Shown one piece after another: positions 30,543 through 46,656 of a stretch of 64,000 nt of DNA (the first letter of the stretch is position 1; the number at the start of each line of letters is the position of its first letter). The notes under the pieces are model-generated. The model was not told where the DNA came from, did not search any database, and saw nothing but the letters and a program-made list of their open reading frames with translations. The translations under genes were made by a program, and so were the position numbers. Origin of the DNA: Siphonobacter sp. SORGH_AS_0500 (GTDB taxonomy: Bacteria; Bacteroidota; Bacteroidia; Cytophagales; Spirosomataceae); NCBI RefSeq assembly GCF_002838835.1, contig NZ_NHPP01000005.1, positions 248,001 through 312,000 of the forward strand, in the 5' to 3' direction.

Positions 30543-30730
30543 TTCGATAGAGTGAGGCTAACAATAGACTAGTTTTAAGCAGTCCAGGTACTCAATTAAT
30601 GATGAAACCATACGAGCAAATTCCTGCCTGAACTACTTTCAAGAATGACAAATCGACCCAGAGAGAAAAGCAAAATGGATGTCTTTTACAGACTGCAAAT
30701 CTTGTTATTATTCCACAGAAATGAAAATAA

Positions 30731-30746
30731 TCTATAAAATCTATAG
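30731..30746 (-). promoter_or_regulatory. CTATAG-containing operator upstream of the sulfatase
   Basis: The 16-bp site TCTATAAAATCTATAG is an imperfect inverted repeat (CTATA-N5-TATAG). The same 16 bases occur in reverse complement at 39623-39638, upstream of the tlpA operon. In both places a TTTGCAG element lies about 31-33 nt further towards the gene (here AAGATTTG, near the -7 consensus TAnnTTTG), so the spacing to the promoter is kept. Confidence 0.5.
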
Positions 30747-30788
30747 GCTATATTAGTAATTTGCAACACTGCGTTTCATCTTTACAAT

Positions 30789-35728: not shown

Positions 35729-35748
35729 ACTAAATCTATAGAATTAGT
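35729..35748 (-). promoter_or_regulatory. CTATAG-containing near-palindrome before the TonB receptor
   Basis: ACTAAATCTATAGAATTAGT is palindromic at 18 of 20 positions and ends 11 nt before the start codon. A site at 44842-44861 (ACTAAATATATAGAGTAAGT) matches it at 17 of 20 positions. The core ATCTATAGA is also present at 39622 and 32177. Its closeness to the start codon means it would overlap the leader or block initiation if bound. Confidence 0.45.
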
Positions 35749-35768
35749 AGAATAAATGAGTTGAAAGA

Positions 35769-37961: not shown

Positions 37962-39251
37962 TTATCGTGCGGCCACATCGCTGCTGGCCGGAGCTTCTTC
38001 AGCAATGTATTTGTCCAGGTCTTTATTCCACTTCTTCACGTAGTTTTTGTAGTATTTCCCCGTTACTTCCCCGGTATAACCCGTGTGGATTTGCTTCACG
38101 GTTCCATCCCGACCAATGATGATCGTTGTTGGGAACGCCATCATTTTATTGAGGGCCGCGAATTTCTCGGAAGCCAGTTTTTTATCCGCAATACCACCGA
38201 AGAGAATGTCGTATTCAATACCGTATTTCTCTTTCAGTTTACCCAGCGTGTACTTGGCGTATTCCAGATCATCTTTCTGTTCAAAACCAACCGCGATGGC
38301 TTCTACACCGCGATGTTTATTGGCCTTATACCAGGGGGAAAGAAAAGCCGTCTGATCCGTGCAATTGGGGCACCAAGTCCCAATGATTTCCACGATGACC
38401 ACTTTGCCTTTGTATTTGGCATCGCTCAGTTTTACGGTTTTTCCATTCAGATCGGGGAAAGTGAAATCTAATTTATTCCGACCTTCCTTCAGTTGAGTCA
38501 GAGCATAGGGATCCGGAAGTTCGGCCTTTTTGTTTTTCGTCCACTCCAGCTTTTGAGTAACGTATAACCCACGATCAATTTCGGCGGATAAGGTTTTGTC
38601 CTCGTTGATTTTTCCTTTGATCAATACGGGATTAGGCCCGGTGAAGCCCGAAAGAACAAATTCATTTCCCTGAACAGTCCCCTCCAGTTCACGGGAATCA
38701 CCCACGACCGTCATGATCACGCCCGTCAGTTTATTCCCCTTTTGTTCGAGTAAAGCGACCTGATTCGCAACCGGTTCTTTACTAATGAGTTTGATTTCCC
38801 ATTTCCCGCTCAGGTTAGCCGCTGGTGCAATGTCTTTACCGGGTTCAACGAATCGGTAAGACTTACCGTATTCCGCCGTAAAAGGCAGCGAGTTACCCCG
38901 GAAGCTGGGCACCAGACTACGGTATTCACCCGTGAGGTGGCCGTCGGGGTGAACCTTAGCTACCAGTGCGGCATCGTACGTATTCATTTTAATAAATAAA
39001 GAATCAGAAGCCGTTTGTTTGACGTGGAAGTGATCCTGACGGGTGCCATTGATGAGGGTGAAAGTAGCGTCTTCGGCTTTATTACCCTTTACTTCAAAAT
39101 TAAAGGGAACCTTCTGTTCGTTAATGGTGAAAACGCCCCGCCAAACGCCTTCTTTCGGGAATTGAGTTTGCTGAGCCTGCGAAGAAAAACCACTGAGTAC
39201 GGACAAAGTAAGGGCCGTGCCTTTCAGGAATGAAATGGCTTTCATTTTCAT
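37962..39251 (-). CDS. TlpA-family thiol-disulfide reductase with large N-terminal domain
   Basis: Protein of 429 residues with a signal peptide (ALTLSVLSGFSSQAQQ). The first 245 residues are a beta-rich domain typical of Bacteroidota TlpA proteins (GVWRGVFTINEQKVPFNFEV, GKWEIKLIS). The thioredoxin domain follows, with active site CPNC in EIIGTWCPNCTDQTAF and cis-Pro in MMAFPTTIIIGRDGTV. CPNC departs from the commoner CGPC. It reduces disulfides in the periplasm. It is the first gene behind the Cys-rich leader ORF at 39381 and the promoter at 39585, and leads an operon with yceI, the DsbD-N-like gene and the peroxidase. Confidence 0.93.
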   Translation of the reverse strand: MKMKAISFLKGTALTLSVLSGFSSQAQQTQFPKEGVWRGVFTINEQKVPFNFEVKGNKAEDATFTLINGTRQDHFHVKQTASDSLFIKMNTYDAALVAKVHPDGHLTGEYRSLVPSFRGNSLPFTAEYGKSYRFVEPGKDIAPAANLSGKWEIKLISKEPVANQVALLEQKGNKLTGVIMTVVGDSRELEGTVQGNEFVLSGFTGPNPVLIKGKINEDKTLSAEIDRGLYVTQKLEWTKNKKAELPDPYALTQLKEGRNKLDFTFPDLNGKTVKLSDAKYKGKVVIVEIIGTWCPNCTDQTAFLSPWYKANKHRGVEAIAVGFEQKDDLEYAKYTLGKLKEKYGIEYDILFGGIADKKLASEKFAALNKMMAFPTTIIIGRDGTVKQIHTGYTGEVTGKYYKNYVKKWNKDLDKYIAEEAPASSDVAAR

Positions 39252-39280: not shown

Positions 39281-39304
39281 TGCACTCGCGTTGAAACGCG
39301 TGCA
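39281..39304 (-). promoter_or_regulatory. Bulged hairpin between Cys leader and tlpA
   Basis: The arms TGCA plus CGCGT pair with ACGCG plus TGCA around loop TGAA, with a 2-nt bulge. It starts 30 nt upstream of the tlpA start, so it would be in the leader transcript. It has no strong U-tract after it, but further TGCA copies lie upstream (39301-39345), so competing pairings are possible. Confidence 0.4.
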
Positions 39305-39380: not shown

Positions 39381-39434
39381 TCAGCAGCAGCAGGTGCAGC
39401 AGCGAGCATTGCAGGCGAATAGCTTAGCGTTCAT
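39381..39434 (-). CDS. Cysteine-rich leader peptide upstream of tlpA (17 residues)
   Basis: The ORF reads MNAKLFACNARCCTCCC, with six Cys among 17 residues, five of them in the last six. Codons are TGC throughout, and the stop follows the final Cys. It lies about 143 nt after the predicted start of transcription and 129 nt before tlpA. A second ORF with the same C-terminal feature lies upstream of susC at 44593, also right after a promoter. Runs of one codon at the end of a short leader are the mark of ribosome-mediated attenuation, here by cysteine supply. The sequence supports an ORF; the mechanism is inferred. Confidence 0.65.
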   Translation of the reverse strand: MNAKLFACNARCCTCCC

Positions 39435-39584
39435 GGTTGGTTGTTGGGTTTATAGTTCCTAAAAATGTTAGGCAGGTTAGCACTGATTCCGTTCAGGAAA
39501 GTTGCTAAGGATTCAAAGAGCCTGTCTCTCCACCTTTCTTTATAAGCCGTAACTACTTTTGCAGGGAAGTAATTGAAGACTCTG

Positions 39585-39617: not shown

Positions 39618-39622
39618 TAAAT

Positions 39623-39638
39623 CTATAGATTTTATAGA
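39623..39638 (-). promoter_or_regulatory. CTATAG-containing operator upstream of the tlpA promoter
   Basis: CTATAGATTTTATAGA on the plus strand; the 16 bases are the exact reverse complement of the site before the sulfatase (30731-30746). It ends 6 nt upstream of the -33 element. Shared sequence and position suggest one regulator controls sulfatase and tlpA operons. Confidence 0.55.
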
Positions 39639-39712
39639 CTAATAACGTTTATTTTTTTAGCCAAACCTATTAATCATTTGTCAATCAGTAGATTGAGAAT
39701 TGAGGTTAGATT

Positions 39713-39755: not shown

Positions 39756-41231
39756 TTAATTACGGGTCATTAGCTTATTAGCGGTTAACTCACTGGCTGG
39801 AATGAGCCATACATAGGTAGGATCGCTCGGTACGATGGCCGGTACAGTGCCTTTTGCTGGAAACGTTAGATTCTGCCGGTAAATGTCAATAGAGCGTAAG
39901 CCTTCGCCTAAAAACTCAATGCGGCGTTCTTTTAGAATCGTTTCCAGCAAAGCACTGGCATTAGGAAAGCTGGCGGTAGTCCACTGCGTGGAAGCATCCG
40001 ACCTTGATCGCACGGCACTCAGCAACTGAACGGCTCGGGCATCTACTGAATTGGTCGAGCGGGTTCGTGCCTCAGCAAGGTTCAATAGCACTTCCGCGTA
40101 GCGAATAATTGGAGCTTTGTCGGTATAAGGCGACGGACTCGAGTATTTCGATAACCACTGCTGCCCGCCCGAAGTAACCACAAACTGGCGGCGGGCATCG
40201 GTCGATTTCCAGGTGCTTTCGCCCAGAATTCCTGCCGGGTTCAGGTAATACTCCCTGTTACCTGTCGGTAGGTAGTAAAAGCCAAATTGATTCTGCGTTC
40301 CTGGGTTGTCCTGATTGGTGAAAACGAGCGAGAAGATGCTTTCCGTTGTGGTTTGCGGTACGGCAAAGACCGAAGCAATATTGGCTTGCAAGGCATGCTT
40401 TACGCCCGTGGTGGCCGTAAAGGGAGCAGAAGCGGAAACAATCTTGTCAGCTTCCCGGATTACGTCATCCCATTTAGATTGAGCCAGATAAACTTTCGTT
40501 TTAAACGCAATTGCCGAATTCCGATGCGGATGCGAGACATTGGTCAATTCATCGGTATAATTTAACGGAAGGTTCTGCTCGGCGAAATTCAAATCCTCAA
40601 TAATCTGAGCGTAAACTTCGGCCACCGTACTCCGGGCCAGATCGTTATTCGCTGCATTGGTTTCAGCCTGAAGCCGAAGCGGCAAGCCCGGACTGGAACC
40701 ATTAGAAGTTGCCCCATACGACCGGGCATAAAACTGCAGTACGTAGAAATAAGCCACCGCTCTCACGAACCGAGCTTCGGCTTTGTATTTTAGCACTTGC
40801 TGGTCATAGTTGGCCGGAAACGTAGGAGGTACGAATTTGCTGGCGTTATCATCCAGACCTTTTAAAAATACGTTAACTTTATTAATAGAAGCATAAGCCG
40901 CGTCCCAGATGCCACCCGTCTGCGATTCGTTTTGTGTAAAGCTCCACACGTTAAAACCAGTACCCTGGTTGGCCTTGACATTCAGGAATTCTTCTCCCTG
41001 AATATCGCTATAAATGTGATAACGCCCTCCTAGAAAGGCTCCTGATTTAATGGACGAAGAACTGAATAACCCGTTCACCTGCTGGGCAATGCGGGCAGGT
41101 GTATCGAAAACGACAATGTCGGTGAAAAACGTAGTGGGTGTGGGTTCTAGTTTGTCTTCGTTGCAGGAAGAAAGTGCAAGTACGATTCCAAGGCCTAGTA
41201 CGCGGGACGTATGTTTGAGTAAGTGATTCAT
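39756..41231 (-). CDS. SusD/RagB-like lipoprotein
   Basis: Protein of 491 residues with lipoprotein signal (LGLGIVLALSSC, Cys23). It has the SusD layout: an early YHIYSDIQGEEFLN region, helical TPR-like core (KYKAEARFVRAVAYFYVLQF), FAEQNLPLNY, PIIRYAEVLLNLAEARTRS and the late ERRIEFLGEGLRSIDIYRQ with ending VWLIPASELTANKLM. It binds the ligand of the partner SusC encoded 12 nt upstream. The pair follows a Cys-codon leader, so the import system may respond to sulfur amino acid supply, but the substrate is not visible. Confidence 0.93.
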   Translation of the reverse strand: MNHLLKHTSRVLGLGIVLALSSCNEDKLEPTPTTFFTDIVVFDTPARIAQQVNGLFSSSSIKSGAFLGGRYHIYSDIQGEEFLNVKANQGTGFNVWSFTQNESQTGGIWDAAYASINKVNVFLKGLDDNASKFVPPTFPANYDQQVLKYKAEARFVRAVAYFYVLQFYARSYGATSNGSSPGLPLRLQAETNAANNDLARSTVAEVYAQIIEDLNFAEQNLPLNYTDELTNVSHPHRNSAIAFKTKVYLAQSKWDDVIREADKIVSASAPFTATTGVKHALQANIASVFAVPQTTTESIFSLVFTNQDNPGTQNQFGFYYLPTGNREYYLNPAGILGESTWKSTDARRQFVVTSGGQQWLSKYSSPSPYTDKAPIIRYAEVLLNLAEARTRSTNSVDARAVQLLSAVRSRSDASTQWTTASFPNASALLETILKERRIEFLGEGLRSIDIYRQNLTFPAKGTVPAIVPSDPTYVWLIPASELTANKLMTRN

Positions 41232-41243
41232 AATTAGGAAGGG

Positions 41244-44200
41244 TTAAAAGCCAATAGTAATACCGAGGGATACTGTACGGGTTTGTCCCAATGCATTCCG
41301 GTCCACGCCGGGGCCCGTATTGCTGTTTCCATTCACCGTAGATTCGGGATCATAACCGCTGTACTTCGTAAAAACCAGAGCATTCTGCACCTGAGCGTAC
41401 ACGCGGGCACTCGATACATGAAGGCGGTTCAGAACATTTGGATTGAGTTTGTACCCCAGCGAAACATTCCGCAGACGAGCAAAATCGCCTTTTTCAATAT
41501 TTTCGGAAATGGAGATAGCCGCTCCGCCGTTGGAAATGTTATCTCCGTAAACCGCCCGTGGTAATTTCCCATCCTTATTAGTCGGTGTCCAGCGGTCGAG
41601 GAGATCCGTGCTGTTGTTATAGCCGCGTTGATCACGAGTTCCAGGTTTGGTGCCGTTCAGAACCTTATTACCTCCCGAGAATTGCAGGAATAAACCCAGA
41701 TCGAAGTTTTTGTAGGTAAACGTGTTATCAAATCCGCCGTACCATTTGGCAAAGCCGGGCCTTGATTTCTACCGTCCGCCAGCGTCGTTGCAGCAGATAC
41801 GGACGTGCCTTCCAGCGTCGTCCATCGTTGGGATGCGGAGGCCGAATGATCGTATTGAACCACGGTTCCGTCGGCTTTCTGGAATAAACGGCGACCATTT
41901 TCAGGATTAACCCCCAGCGTAGTAACGGCCCAGAGACTGGAAACCGATTTTCCAATTTCAATTACGTTTTCACCGTTGATTATCCGCTGGTTATCGCCAT
42001 TCAGGCTAATGACCTTATTTTTCAGCGTCGTTACATTCGCATTGATTTTCCAGCTGAACTCATCCGTACGAACGGCATGGGCCTGTACGCTGAACTCCAG
42101 CCCGGTATTTTGCATCGAGCCAATATTGAGTAACAGAGAATTGGAGGGGATCCCTTTGGAAGATGCCTGCGGAACATTGAGAATCAGGCCATCCACATCG
42201 TTTTGGTAATAGGCGATTTCTCCGGTAATGCGATCATTGAGTAAGCCAAAAGCAAATCCAAAATCAGTTTTCTTGCTGGTTTCCCAGGACAGACTTCGGT
42301 TTCCCGCCTGATCGTAATAAAGCGTAGGGGAATCGCCCTGTAAACCAGCCGCGTAGGATTGCAGCGAAGCATAGTCATTAATGCCCTGATTATTCCCAAC
42401 CAGACCGTAGCTACCCCGGAATTTCAGGTAACTTACGATTCGACTGATGGCTGAATTCGCCCAGAAAGTTTCATCTGAGATGGAGTAACCCAGCGAAGCA
42501 CCGTAGAAGTTACCAAACTTTTTACCACTCGCAAAAGCTGAATAGCCGTCCCGACGGAAGTTAAGAGTAGCGAAATATTTTTTACCGAAATCATAATTCA
42601 AACGTCCGAAATAGGATAACAGGAAGTTTTCCGTTTGAGCCATGCTCACCGGAACTGTATTTACAAAGTTCCCCTTGACACTCCTGAAAAGTGGATCGGA
42701 CTGGTTCGTTCGGTTTAAACCCCAACGGTCCACTGTAGAAAGTTGCTGTTCATTGCCGATTAACAAAGAAATATTATGCTTTCCAGCCAATGAAAAATCG
42801 TATTGAGCCGTATTCTGCCAGTTCCAACGGTAGTTATTGCGATAACGGCTGGTCGCACTGCCACCCACAAATACGCCGGGAGGAGTAAGCGGACTTTCAT
42901 ACGATTCATCGACTACACTCAACCGATCAATCCCATATTGAGTACGGATGTTCAGCCCTTTGATGATTTCCCAATTGGCGTATAAACTTCCCTGCGTGGC
43001 GGCACCCGACGAACGATAGCGATCATTATCCATCACCGCCGCCAGATTGGACCAGATGGACGGAATACGGTTATTCATCTGACCGATCAAACCACCAGAA
43101 CCGATATTATACGAGCCATCGCTATTGTATGGACTCAGGTTAGGGTCAGGGCTTAAGGCTAAACGCGGACCGTTGGTGTAGGAATAGACTTCCCCACTTA
43201 CTGAACCTGAATTGACGGAAAGGGTGCTGGTGTTACTGATAGCAAAATTAGCTCCAATCGTAAAGGTTTTGAAAAGCTTATGGTCGATTTTAACACGAGC
43301 ATTTTTACGATCAAATTCGTTATGCTTCACAATCCCCGCCTGATCGGTATATCCCAGTGAAACGTAATAATTAGTTCGCTCCGAACCGCCTGAAAAACTC
43401 AAAGCGTGCGACTGCGAAAATCCATTATTCTGGTAAAATAGTTTTTTATAGTCGGTATCAATTAAGTTGCCGTTGGCGTCATAATTTAAAGCGTAACCGG
43501 GCGTTTGTCCGGCATTGGCAAGGGCTTCATTTTTCAGGGTAACAAAATCTTCTGCCCCCAGCATTTGGATTTTGTTAAGTCGGTAGGGGTTCGACCAGCT
43601 TACCCAGGAATCCAGACTTACTTTTACATTACCCTTTTTGCCCTGTTTAGTGGTAATCAGAATGACCCCGGCACTGGCCCGTGAACCGTAAATAGCAGTG
43701 GCCGAAGCATCTTTTAATACCTCAACGCTCTCAATATCAGCCGGATTAATATTAGATAATGGGTTATTGGAAGCCGAATTGGTAGAGATATTATCCGTAT
43801 ACGTAGGTACGCCATCTACCACAACCAGCGGGAAGGAACTCAGGTTAATTGAGTTAATCCCGCGAATACGAATGACGGGTGTAGCGTTCAGAGCTCCGCC
43901 GGGGGTTGAAATGTTAACTCCAGCGGCTCTTCCCTGTAGGGCCTGATCAAAACTCTGCACAGGAGCAGCGGCAAGGTCTTTACCCGAAACCGTTGCGATC
44001 GAGCCCGTTAAATCCCGTTTCTGCTGGGTACCATACCCCACAACAACCACTTCATTCAACTGGCTGGTCTGCGATTCCAGATGGATATCCACGCGAGTTC
44101 GAGTACCTACGATTACTTCCTGTGAAATAAAGCCAACAAAAGAAAAAACTAATGTCGCTTTTGCATCAGCTATGTGAAGCTGATAATTTCCGTTGGCGTC

Positions 44201-44455
44201 GGTCGTAGTGCCGACGGTGGTTCCCTTAATGGCGACCGACACGCCAGGTAGAGGTGTACCATCGCTTTGAGCAGTTACTTTCCCCTGAATCACTAGGTCT
44301 TTTGATGAGATGAGTAGGGGCTGATGGAGAGGAGCGGCTTCGGCTGGCGGTGTGCCCGATAAAGCATAACTCAGTAATAACAAACCCAGAATCTGCTGAG
44401 CGGAAATGATAGGTTTTTTCATACTCTTGTCAATGAAAAGATGGGAATAAGGCAC
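41244..44455 (-). CDS. SusC/RagA-type TonB-dependent transporter, one frame break
   Basis: About 1070 residues after restoring one base near 41751-41762. Upstream of the break the frame reads through ALPNGTADL and stops early; with the base restored it continues PGFAKWYGGFDNTFTYKN, then LDRWTPTNKDGKLPRAVYG, and ends SLGITIGF with terminal Phe. Domains: signal sequence, CarboxypepD_reg-like (VIQGKVTAQSDGTPLPGVSV), the SusC TonB box region (LNEVVVVGYGTQQKRDLTG), plug (PLVVVDGVPTYTDN, SVEVLKDASATAIYGSRAS) and barrel. It has no STN domain, so no FecR partner is expected. It follows a 28-residue leader ORF ending SCCC. Importer of an unknown ligand together with SusD. Confidence 0.93.
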
Positions 44456-44551
44456 ACAAAGGAGTACTGATAAAGCAATAGGAGAACTTCAGACCTAATC
44501 AATAGCTAAGTCTGACACTAGGGGAATTCGTAAAAAGAAGGCGGAGAATCT

Positions 44552-44570
44552 TCCGAAATAATACTTCGGA
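44552..44570 (-). promoter_or_regulatory. Hairpin after the Cys leader, upstream of susC
   Basis: TCCGAA and TTCGGA pair around a 7-nt loop, 22 nt after the leader stop. On the minus strand the right arm TTCGGA can also pair through CGGA with TCCG just downstream, which is followed by CCTTCTTTTT. Two mutually exclusive stems before a T-rich run are what an attenuator would need, though the second stem is only 4 bp. Confidence 0.4.
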
Positions 44571-44592
44571 GATCAATGGAATAATGGAATAC

Positions 44593-44679
44593 CTAGCAAC
44601 AACACGATTTGAAGTAGAGATCGTGTAAGAGAGCGACAGAAGAATACTCGGTGAGAAAATTATATACAGCTTGTTTCAT
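44593..44679 (-). CDS. Leader peptide ending in three cysteines, upstream of susC (28 residues)
   Basis: The ORF starts MKQAVYNFLTEYSSVALL and ends FKSCCC with codons TGT TGT TGC then TAG. It begins about 27 nt after the predicted transcription start (promoter at 44713-44744) and stops 137 nt before susC. Position, small size and terminal Cys run match an attenuation leader peptide. The peptide resembles the one at 39381 only in ending in Cys codons, which is what selection on codons rather than on peptide sequence would leave. Confidence 0.62.
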   Translation of the reverse strand: MKQAVYNFLTEYSSVALLHDLYFKSCCC

Positions 44680-44712
44680 TATGGAAGATTTAAAGTCTAT
44701 AAAATTGGTAGG

Positions 44713-44744
44713 CAAAGTAGGATAAACTTAAATGCTTTTCCAAA
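44713..44744 (-). promoter_or_regulatory. Bacteroidota-type promoter of susC
   Basis: On the minus strand TTTG (44741-44744) is followed after 21 nt by TACTTTG (44713-44719), one base short of the consensus TAnnTTTG. Transcription would begin about 44706, 27 nt before the leader ORF. Confidence 0.5.
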
Positions 44745-44841
44745 TGCTTTTAAAAACTTTATTTTAAAGCTTCTGTATAGATTATTCAAAAATCACCTTC
44801 GCTGGGGATTGACAGGATAGTATATTTTCATATAATAACAT

Positions 44842-44870
44842 ACTAAATATATAGAGTAAGTGTATATTTG
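44842..44870 (+). promoter_or_regulatory. Operator plus -7 element before the TPR gene
   Basis: ACTAAATATATAGAGTAAGT (44842-44861) matches the element before the TonB receptor (35729) at 17 of 20 positions. TATATTTG (44863-44870) fits the -7 consensus TAnnTTTG and points to the plus strand, 78 nt before the TPR gene start. The operator would lie over the -33 region. Confidence 0.45.
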
Positions 44871-44947
44871 ATTCAGATTTTGTTTTAGGAGTTGCCTGTC
44901 TGTTCTTTTCTATCGGATAAAAAACAGTCTTTCCGTCTGAATCCCTT

Positions 44948-46656
44948 ATGAAACTTCGCTTACTAGCTTTGAGTTTACTTTCCCTGCCTGCCCTGAGTCA
45001 ACGGGTGTATCACGATGATCATCACCACGATCCAGAAGGTCGGGCGATGAATCACGATCATCTTACTCATATTCAGGAATATCGTAAAGAAACGGTTTAT
45101 GTACATCATCTTCCGGCTCCACAAGTAATGTCGGGAATTGGTACTTCTGATCTGAAAATTCAAACGAAATCTTCTTTAACTCAAACCTATTTCAATCAGG
45201 CGTTGCCTTACTGCATGGTTTCTGGGATTTTGAGGCGTATCGGGCTTTTAAAGAAGCGTCCCGTCAGGATTCAACCGCCCTCATGCCTTATTGGGGTATT
45301 TATAGTGCAATTGGTTCCATGGAAGGGGATGACTTTGCGGAAGACCGGATTCGGGCTGTGGCAAAAATTAAAGCGTTGAAAGATAAGGCCCCTCCGCATG
45401 AAAGGCGTTATGCGGAAGCCATTCTGGCCCGCGAGGTATCGGGGGCAAACCACAAAAAGGAGTATGAACGTATTCTGGAGTTACTGGTTCACGAATACCC
45501 CGACGATGTAGATGCCAAGCTCTTTCTGGCTTTAAGCAAAATGAGCGGCTATGATCTCAAGCTGAATCCCAGAGAGGGAACGATGTATGCCGAATACCTG
45601 CTGCGAGACGTACTAAAATCGCATCCCGATAACGCCGGAGCTCATCATTACTGGATTCACCTGAAGGAAAATTGTTGCCCGGAAGAGGCTCTTGAAAGCT
45701 GTGAAAAATTACCTAAACTCGGTCCGGCTTCGAGTCATCTGGTGCACATGCCGGGTCACGTGTACTATAAGTTAGGCGAATACCAGAAAGCCTTCGATAC
45801 ATTCAAAGCTTCCGTCGCGGTGGACTCCGTTTATATGAAAAAGCAGAATATTCAGGAAGTTGATGCTTGGAATTACATTCACAATATCAATTACTTATTG
45901 GCCAATTGTGCCGAAGATGGACGTTACGCAACGGCATTGTACTATGCCGAAAAGCTCCAGAATATGCCTGCTTCGAAAGAACGCAAACGCAAGTACGAAG
46001 GTCGTTTCTTTTATCAGGGCATTCTTGCTCCCGTAAAAATGGAAATCTGTTTTGGGCATTACGACCGGGCGGCCCAACGTCTTAAAGCCATTTTGCCCAC
46101 TGACAGTTTGTATTCAGTCAAAGCAATGGCGTATAAAGATGGACTATATTATTTTTCTGCAGGAATGGACGCCATCAAGCGAAATAAAATTGAGGAAGCT
46201 CAGAAGTTGGTTGATGCACTGGATGCTACGCTTTGGCGAAATGTCAACCAGTTTAGCGAAGCAGATATTATCAATTCGCGGCGGGTGAATGACTTAAATG
46301 TAGCTTCGCTGGAATTACAGGGACTGATCAAAAACGCTCAGGGACATACCAAAGAAGCGATTGCCTTATTGGAAAAAGCAAAGGTCAAGGAAGAAGAATT
46401 AGGGTATAGCGAACCGCCTTCGTATGCCCGTCCGGTATTGATTAGCCTCGGCGAAGTGCAGTTACAGGCCAAAAATTACGATCAGGCTATTAAAGCGTAT
46501 ATGGATTTATTGCATAAACATCCCAATTCAGCCAACGGACTCTGGGGCTTGTATAAAGTATATCGAAAAAAAGGCGATTCGACCAAAGCCAAAGAATACG
46601 CCGATTTGCTAGCGAGAATCTGTCGTTATGGCGATAAGAGTCTGTATCCGCTTTAA
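44948..46656 (+). CDS. Exported TPR protein with His-rich N-terminus, one frame break
   Basis: About 570 residues when one missing C near 45205-45208 is restored; this joins TYFNQALP to LLHGFWDFEAYRAFKEAS and then MPYWGIYSAIG. A signal peptide (LLALSLLSLPALSQ) is followed by a His-rich stretch (YHDDHHHDPEGRAMNHDHL) that could bind metal. Then come TPR helices, including the family segments SSHLVHMPGHVYYKLGEY and SLGEVQLQAKNYDQAIKAYM. It is a known family of periplasmic TPR proteins of unclear role. The gene is divergent from susC and shares a CTATAG-type operator; it is followed after 84 nt by a TlpA gene. Confidence 0.8.

Follow-up and report, generated by a model that had tools for sequence, protein, structure and literature searches.

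The window analyzed here, a 64,000-nucleotide stretch of the Siphonobacter sp. SORGH_AS_0500 genome, contains a 28-codon open reading frame that ends in three cysteine codons and lies between a promoter-like pair and a susC/susD gene pair. We consider, with a probability of roughly 60%, that this frame (leader ORF 2) is a lineage-specific candidate for a Cys leader attenuator placed before a sulfur-linked SusC/SusD importer. We infer the translation of leader 2, the stalling, the effect on susC and the RNA step that is controlled: when charged tRNA-Cys is scarce, ribosomes would slow on the terminal TGT TGT TGC codons, and the slowed ribosome would alter the fate of the downstream RNA, either by termination or by how accessible the susC start is, and susC expression would rise. 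With plentiful cysteine, ribosomes would finish the leader fast, and susC expression would be low.

A terminal Cys run upstream of susC

Leader ORF 2 (positions 44593 to 44679, minus strand) runs from the ATG at 44679 to the TAG at 44593, encodes MKQAVYNFLTEYSSVALLHDLYFKSCCC, and has TCG TGT TGT TGC TAG as its 3' end, exactly as the original prediction had described. The anticipated promoter-like pair was also found, and it is of the Bacteroidota type (44713 to 44744, minus strand), with TTTG at 44744 to 44741 (-33) and CTACTTTG at 44720 to 44713 (-7). The TTTG-to-TTTG gap of this putative promoter is 24 nt, and the TTTG-N24/25-TTTG arrangement is common to it, to the unit at 39381, and to the other operator promoters of the group. 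As in a Cys leader-peptide attenuator, a short ORF with clustered Cys codons is thus sited between the promoter-like pair and susC; the Cys content of 3 in 28 residues was counted against this reading. A perfect TTGACA-N16-TATAAT was also observed at 44809 to 44836 on the plus strand, between divergent genes, which is unexpected for a Bacteroidota genome.

The distance of 137 nt that had been given between leader 2 and susC holds if counted to the GTG at 44455. Nevertheless, the susC start is better set at the ATG at 44422, which opens a signal peptide (MKKPIISAQQILGLLLLSYALSG), and the gap is therefore about 170 nt. The susC gene (SusC/RagA family, TIGR04056 match; 41246 to 44422, minus strand) is accompanied by an intact susD (Pfam SusD-like_3 and SusD_RagB; 39756 to 41231, minus strand). 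The first frame of susC covers 44422 to 41657, and the remainder lies in another frame down to about 41246. Alignment to the SusC of G088, a genome of another genus in the same family, indicates a one-base frameshift near 41745, with residues 889 to 1055 of the G088 protein aligning in the other frame and no further break seen. The frameshift could be a mutation of recent origin or an error of the assembly; if it is real, the susC locus may be decaying, and perhaps its regulation too.

Next, the rarity of such frames was evaluated by pattern searches, on which all genome-wide statements rest, in the genome of the window (5.08 Mb, 31 contigs, 92.6% complete). The genome holds 33 copies of TGYTGYTGYTRR, and among the 30 examined, only those at 44593 and 39381 close an intergenic ATG-initiated short ORF (sORF) ending in Cys-Cys-Cys-stop; two of the three copies left out read TGG instead of a stop. 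Shuffles of the noncoding DNA of the window gave an expectation of 0.3 such sORFs per 5.08-Mb genome and of about 0.004 in the window's noncoding DNA, where two were seen on the same strand, 5.2 kb apart. Two Cys-run leaders at this distance are therefore unlikely by chance, as had been argued, and the two share no sequence except the Cys run. These numbers bear on the main alternative, namely, that leader 2 is a chance frame in a long 5' leader and that susC is under the sulfur operator described below, another regulator, or nothing, which we regard as possible but doubtful. The expectation for the whole genome leaves room for a chance frame, whereas the one for the window argues against it, as does the proximity to a conserved Cys leader.

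In a family search for CCxCCC-stop, none of the 18 stop-ending matches examined resembled a leader before a sulfur gene, and many lay within or opposite coding sequence. At locus L132 (G139:C125:3356 and 3592), the poly-Cys ends of two ORFs lie 236 nt from each other. The first of these ends closes a 57-residue ORF (MKKEFFKSQFATQTENAK...DVYACCCCCCC) that looks more like the precursor of a modified peptide than like a leader.

The neighboring Cys-rich leader and the palindromic operator

The frame at 39381, leader ORF 1 (MNAKLFACNARCCTCCC; 39381 to 39434, minus strand), closely follows a SAM-I riboswitch (Rfam RF00162, 71.2 bits; 39447 to 39548, minus strand). It precedes a thioredoxin/TlpA-like gene (AhpC-TSA by Pfam; 37962 to 39242, minus strand), the first of an operon that encodes thioredoxin-like, DsbD-like, and di-haem (MauG-like) proteins. 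In three congeners, G005, G001, and G004, whose thioredoxin/TlpA-like orthologs are 98%, 95%, and 86% identical, a Cys-rich sORF occupies the equivalent place with a diverged peptide (MNPKQYLCLSCTSRC, MTPFTSTCCCC, and MNCTTCLPCQRGAC, respectively). The versions of the four species contain 6, 3, 4, and 4 Cys in 17, 15, 11, and 14 residues, with a Cys spacing that is not kept, and in comparison with the nearest congener, G005, the sORF is 69% identical and the stretch just upstream 92%. Since the peptide diverges while the Cys richness stays, selection on the Cys codons, and not on the peptide sequence, would be the simplest reading, and the assignment of leader 1 as a putative Cys-rich leader is well supported by these sequence comparisons. 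G001 has kept the Cys run, but its SAM aptamer is eroded and gives no Rfam call.

Two hairpins are predicted between the leader 1 sORF and the gene in three species, and the consensus fold places a hairpin before the thioredoxin-like gene at 39281 to 39304 (minus strand). In each of the species, the folding energy of the region is lower than that of shuffles (z, -2.3 to -3.1). Across the predicted structure of the whole leader, 4 of the 27 pairs changed on both sides with pairing kept, with a covariation term that was unfavorable overall.

The arrangement of a fast-evolving Cys-rich leader ORF behind a SAM-I riboswitch was observed in the window (39381 to 39548, minus strand) and at loci L162, L163, and L164, and it persists in congeners, apart from the eroded aptamer of G001. 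Cysteine desulfurase genes that follow a SAM riboswitch (L111, L216, and L222) have a short ORF with one Cys, whose place is kept (MALSPTRNRPACFILRS and MALHPTQNGPACFVLRS in two congeners and MSFLPNLRNRSACSLLMS in the genome of the window). At locus L109 (G000:C31:41310), a 50-codon ORF with SSCCGLHAE in its translation lies behind a SAM riboswitch that precedes an O-acetylhomoserine sulfhydrylase-like gene. No Cys leaders were seen before cysH in relatives within the flanks examined.

The thioredoxin-like operon also carries, just 5' of its -33 element, an exact palindrome of the form TCTATA-N5-TATAGA (TAGTCTATAAAATCTATAGATTT; 39619 to 39641, minus strand), which is kept in four congeners. 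In the genus, this operator is found, exact or with one mismatch, before cysH, FMN reductase, and several susC genes and also before the cysteine desulfurase behind a SAM riboswitch. The palindrome was further observed at L208:4452 and, across genomes of the Spirosoma family, at the promoters of genes related to sulfur. Genome-wide, one-mismatch copies are clearly above a reversed-pattern control in only some genomes, so little weight can be placed on single sites that lie outside conserved promoters.

To rank sites, we used a matrix trained only on sites outside the window, which is not fully independent of the pattern since the training sites were picked by pattern match. The top four sites in the 64 kb were those of the thioredoxin-like operon, a sulfatase gene (rank 2, one mismatch; 30728 to 30750, minus strand), a TonB-dependent receptor (rank 3, operator-like; 35732 to 35754, minus strand), and the susC promoter (rank 4; 44693 to 44715, minus strand); the sulfatase gene matched arylsulfatase models below their cut-offs. 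The susC site (TTGCCTACCAATTTTATAGACTT) reads as a degraded sulfur-type operator with three core mismatches. Its score of 17.7 to 18.1 was reached by 6 of 3,000 shuffles of the intergenic region, and in whole-window shuffles, a score of 18 corresponded to 0.025 sites per window. Unlike most other sites, it overlaps the -7 box, together with the presumed start of the susC promoter. The operator of trx, nifS, and several further susC promoters, in contrast, sits just upstream of the -33 element. Judged from its sequence, the degraded site is an uncertain candidate for a working operator. The genome encodes one Rrf2-family regulator, and nothing ties it to the palindrome.

Relatives of the SusC/SusD pair and folding of the susC leader

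Among the 222 family genomes searched, the nearest relative of the pair is that of G088 (SusC, 72%; SusD, 73 to 74%). No close orthologs were found in the genus, where the best SusC reached 48%; the best SusD match in GTDB contigs was 53%, and the best match of a susC/susD search in plasmids was 46%. An exact palindromic operator in G088 ends 37 nt 5' of the susC start codon, so this susC has no room for such a leader. Indeed, a Cys-run sORF was absent before susC in G088, in the 52 to 55% relatives, and in the other susC regions examined, and in the genus, none was found before other susC and FMN-reductase genes that bear the operator. The expectation that the Cys codons would be conserved in orthologous susC leaders thus failed, and since no orthologous susC carries it, leader 2 is known from one sequence.

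The proposed sulfur link of the SusC/SusD pair gained separate support from the sulfur-type operator at the G088 susC promoter and its degraded copy here. Two TldD/PmbA peptidases lie beside the related pair in G088 and an M20 amidohydrolase beside that in G073 and, by sequence resemblance, in G033. The G073 relative also has a SAM riboswitch and a PLP enzyme of Cys/Met metabolism in its neighborhood. From these neighbors, sulfur-containing peptides or acylated amino acids would be a reasonable guess for the substrate.

In the RNA between leader 2 and susC, folding predicted hairpin A (44547 to 44574, minus strand; core, 44570 to 44552), followed by the T-rich stretch CTTCTTTTT, and hairpin C (TCAGACTTAG...TTAGGTCTGA; 44489 to 44515, minus strand), without a T run directly 3'. 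A hairpin with two mutually exclusive folds had been proposed 22 nt after the leader 2 stop; the hairpin itself is there, as hairpin A, with a computed energy of -7.0 to -10.3 kcal/mol, but the alternative fold, at -3.2 to -3.7 kcal/mol, is more than 3 kcal/mol weaker. Hairpin A is not stronger than composition predicts, the full leader 2 region folded no better than shuffles (z, -1.04; best sub-stretch, -1.9), and a modelled ribosome masked at the Cys codons or the stop left hairpins A and C largely intact. Judged by the computed energies, which are near random, a mutually exclusive hairpin is not credible as the RNA switch, and such a switch is, in these models, a weak proposal for leader 2. 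SAM riboswitch control of susC found no support: an Rfam search of 44300 to 45000 (E up to 10) recovered no known RNA element and no SAM aptamer in the susC leader.

Overall, the attenuator reading of leader 2 is favored by the finding of only two Cys-Cys-Cys-stop sORFs, lying so close together, by the neighboring leader 1, which stays Cys rich in four species, by the exact G088 operator together with the fourth-best site of the window at susC, and by the surroundings of the G073 relative. It is weakened by the absence of the leader from orthologous susC genes and of any Cys-run sORF from the genus's other susC leaders with an operator, by the susC frameshift, and by the lack of a credible predicted ribosome-dependent switch. 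The absence of the leader from orthologs, the ordinary folding, and the frameshift would also suit a chance frame, whereas the position of leader 2 speaks against one, as the gene behind it has an ortholog with a sulfur-type operator. Since conservation failed and the RNA energies are near random, membership of leader 2 in the attenuator class is not established.

Comparison with known leaders and significance

In attenuators of the trp and his type, hairpins follow a leader ORF in which the regulating amino acid is encoded. Leader 2 resembles them in its Cys codons and 3' hairpins but lacks a convincing mutually exclusive terminator/antiterminator. SAM-I (S-box) units are resembled by the neighboring operon, which has a Cys-rich leader ORF next to its SAM-I aptamer, whereas no such aptamer was found 5' of the window's susC. 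As summarized in two citing articles, the mycobacterial polycysteine leader ORFs are leaderless and conserved and regulate through ribosome slowing at Cys codons (Canestrari et al. 2020, as cited in PMC9094748 and PMC13236596). From those summaries, leader 2 would share with them a short ORF that has a Cys run and precedes genes linked to the supply of cysteine, and would differ in following a short 5' UTR, in having no ortholog, and in preceding a Bacteroidota outer-membrane importer. A limited literature search found no description of Cys-codon attenuation in Bacteroidota; it is documented in mycobacteria.

The copper uORF CruR, whose product belongs to DUF2946, has both CXXC and RAPP motifs (Roy et al. 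2022, PMC9426467). Like leader 2, it is a Cys-bearing upstream ORF before a TonB-dependent transporter gene, which CruR controls (PMC9426467), but leader 2 lacks both motifs. By analogy, a Cys-rich nascent peptide might bind a metal or sense thiol redox rather than tRNA-Cys charging, as the shared position of CruR and the proteins of the neighboring operon could suggest, but this is very improbable given the varying Cys spacing of leader 1, the terminal run without CXXC in leader 2, and the SAM riboswitch adjoining leader 1.

Taking leader 2 as a candidate attenuator, we tentatively propose, at slightly less than even odds, that one sulfur regulon in the Spirosoma-family group is regulated at three levels, by the palindromic operator, by SAM-I riboswitches, and by Cys-rich leader ORFs that evolve fast. 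The last of these levels would have spread to a SusC/SusD importer absent from the other sampled species of the genus, and in G001, the Cys leader would have outlasted the SAM aptamer. If Cys-codon attenuation is real here, outer-membrane nutrient import in Bacteroidota can be linked directly to the charging of tRNA-Cys, and a Cys leader could flag sulfur-scavenging SusC/SusD pairs among the many that lack an assigned substrate.
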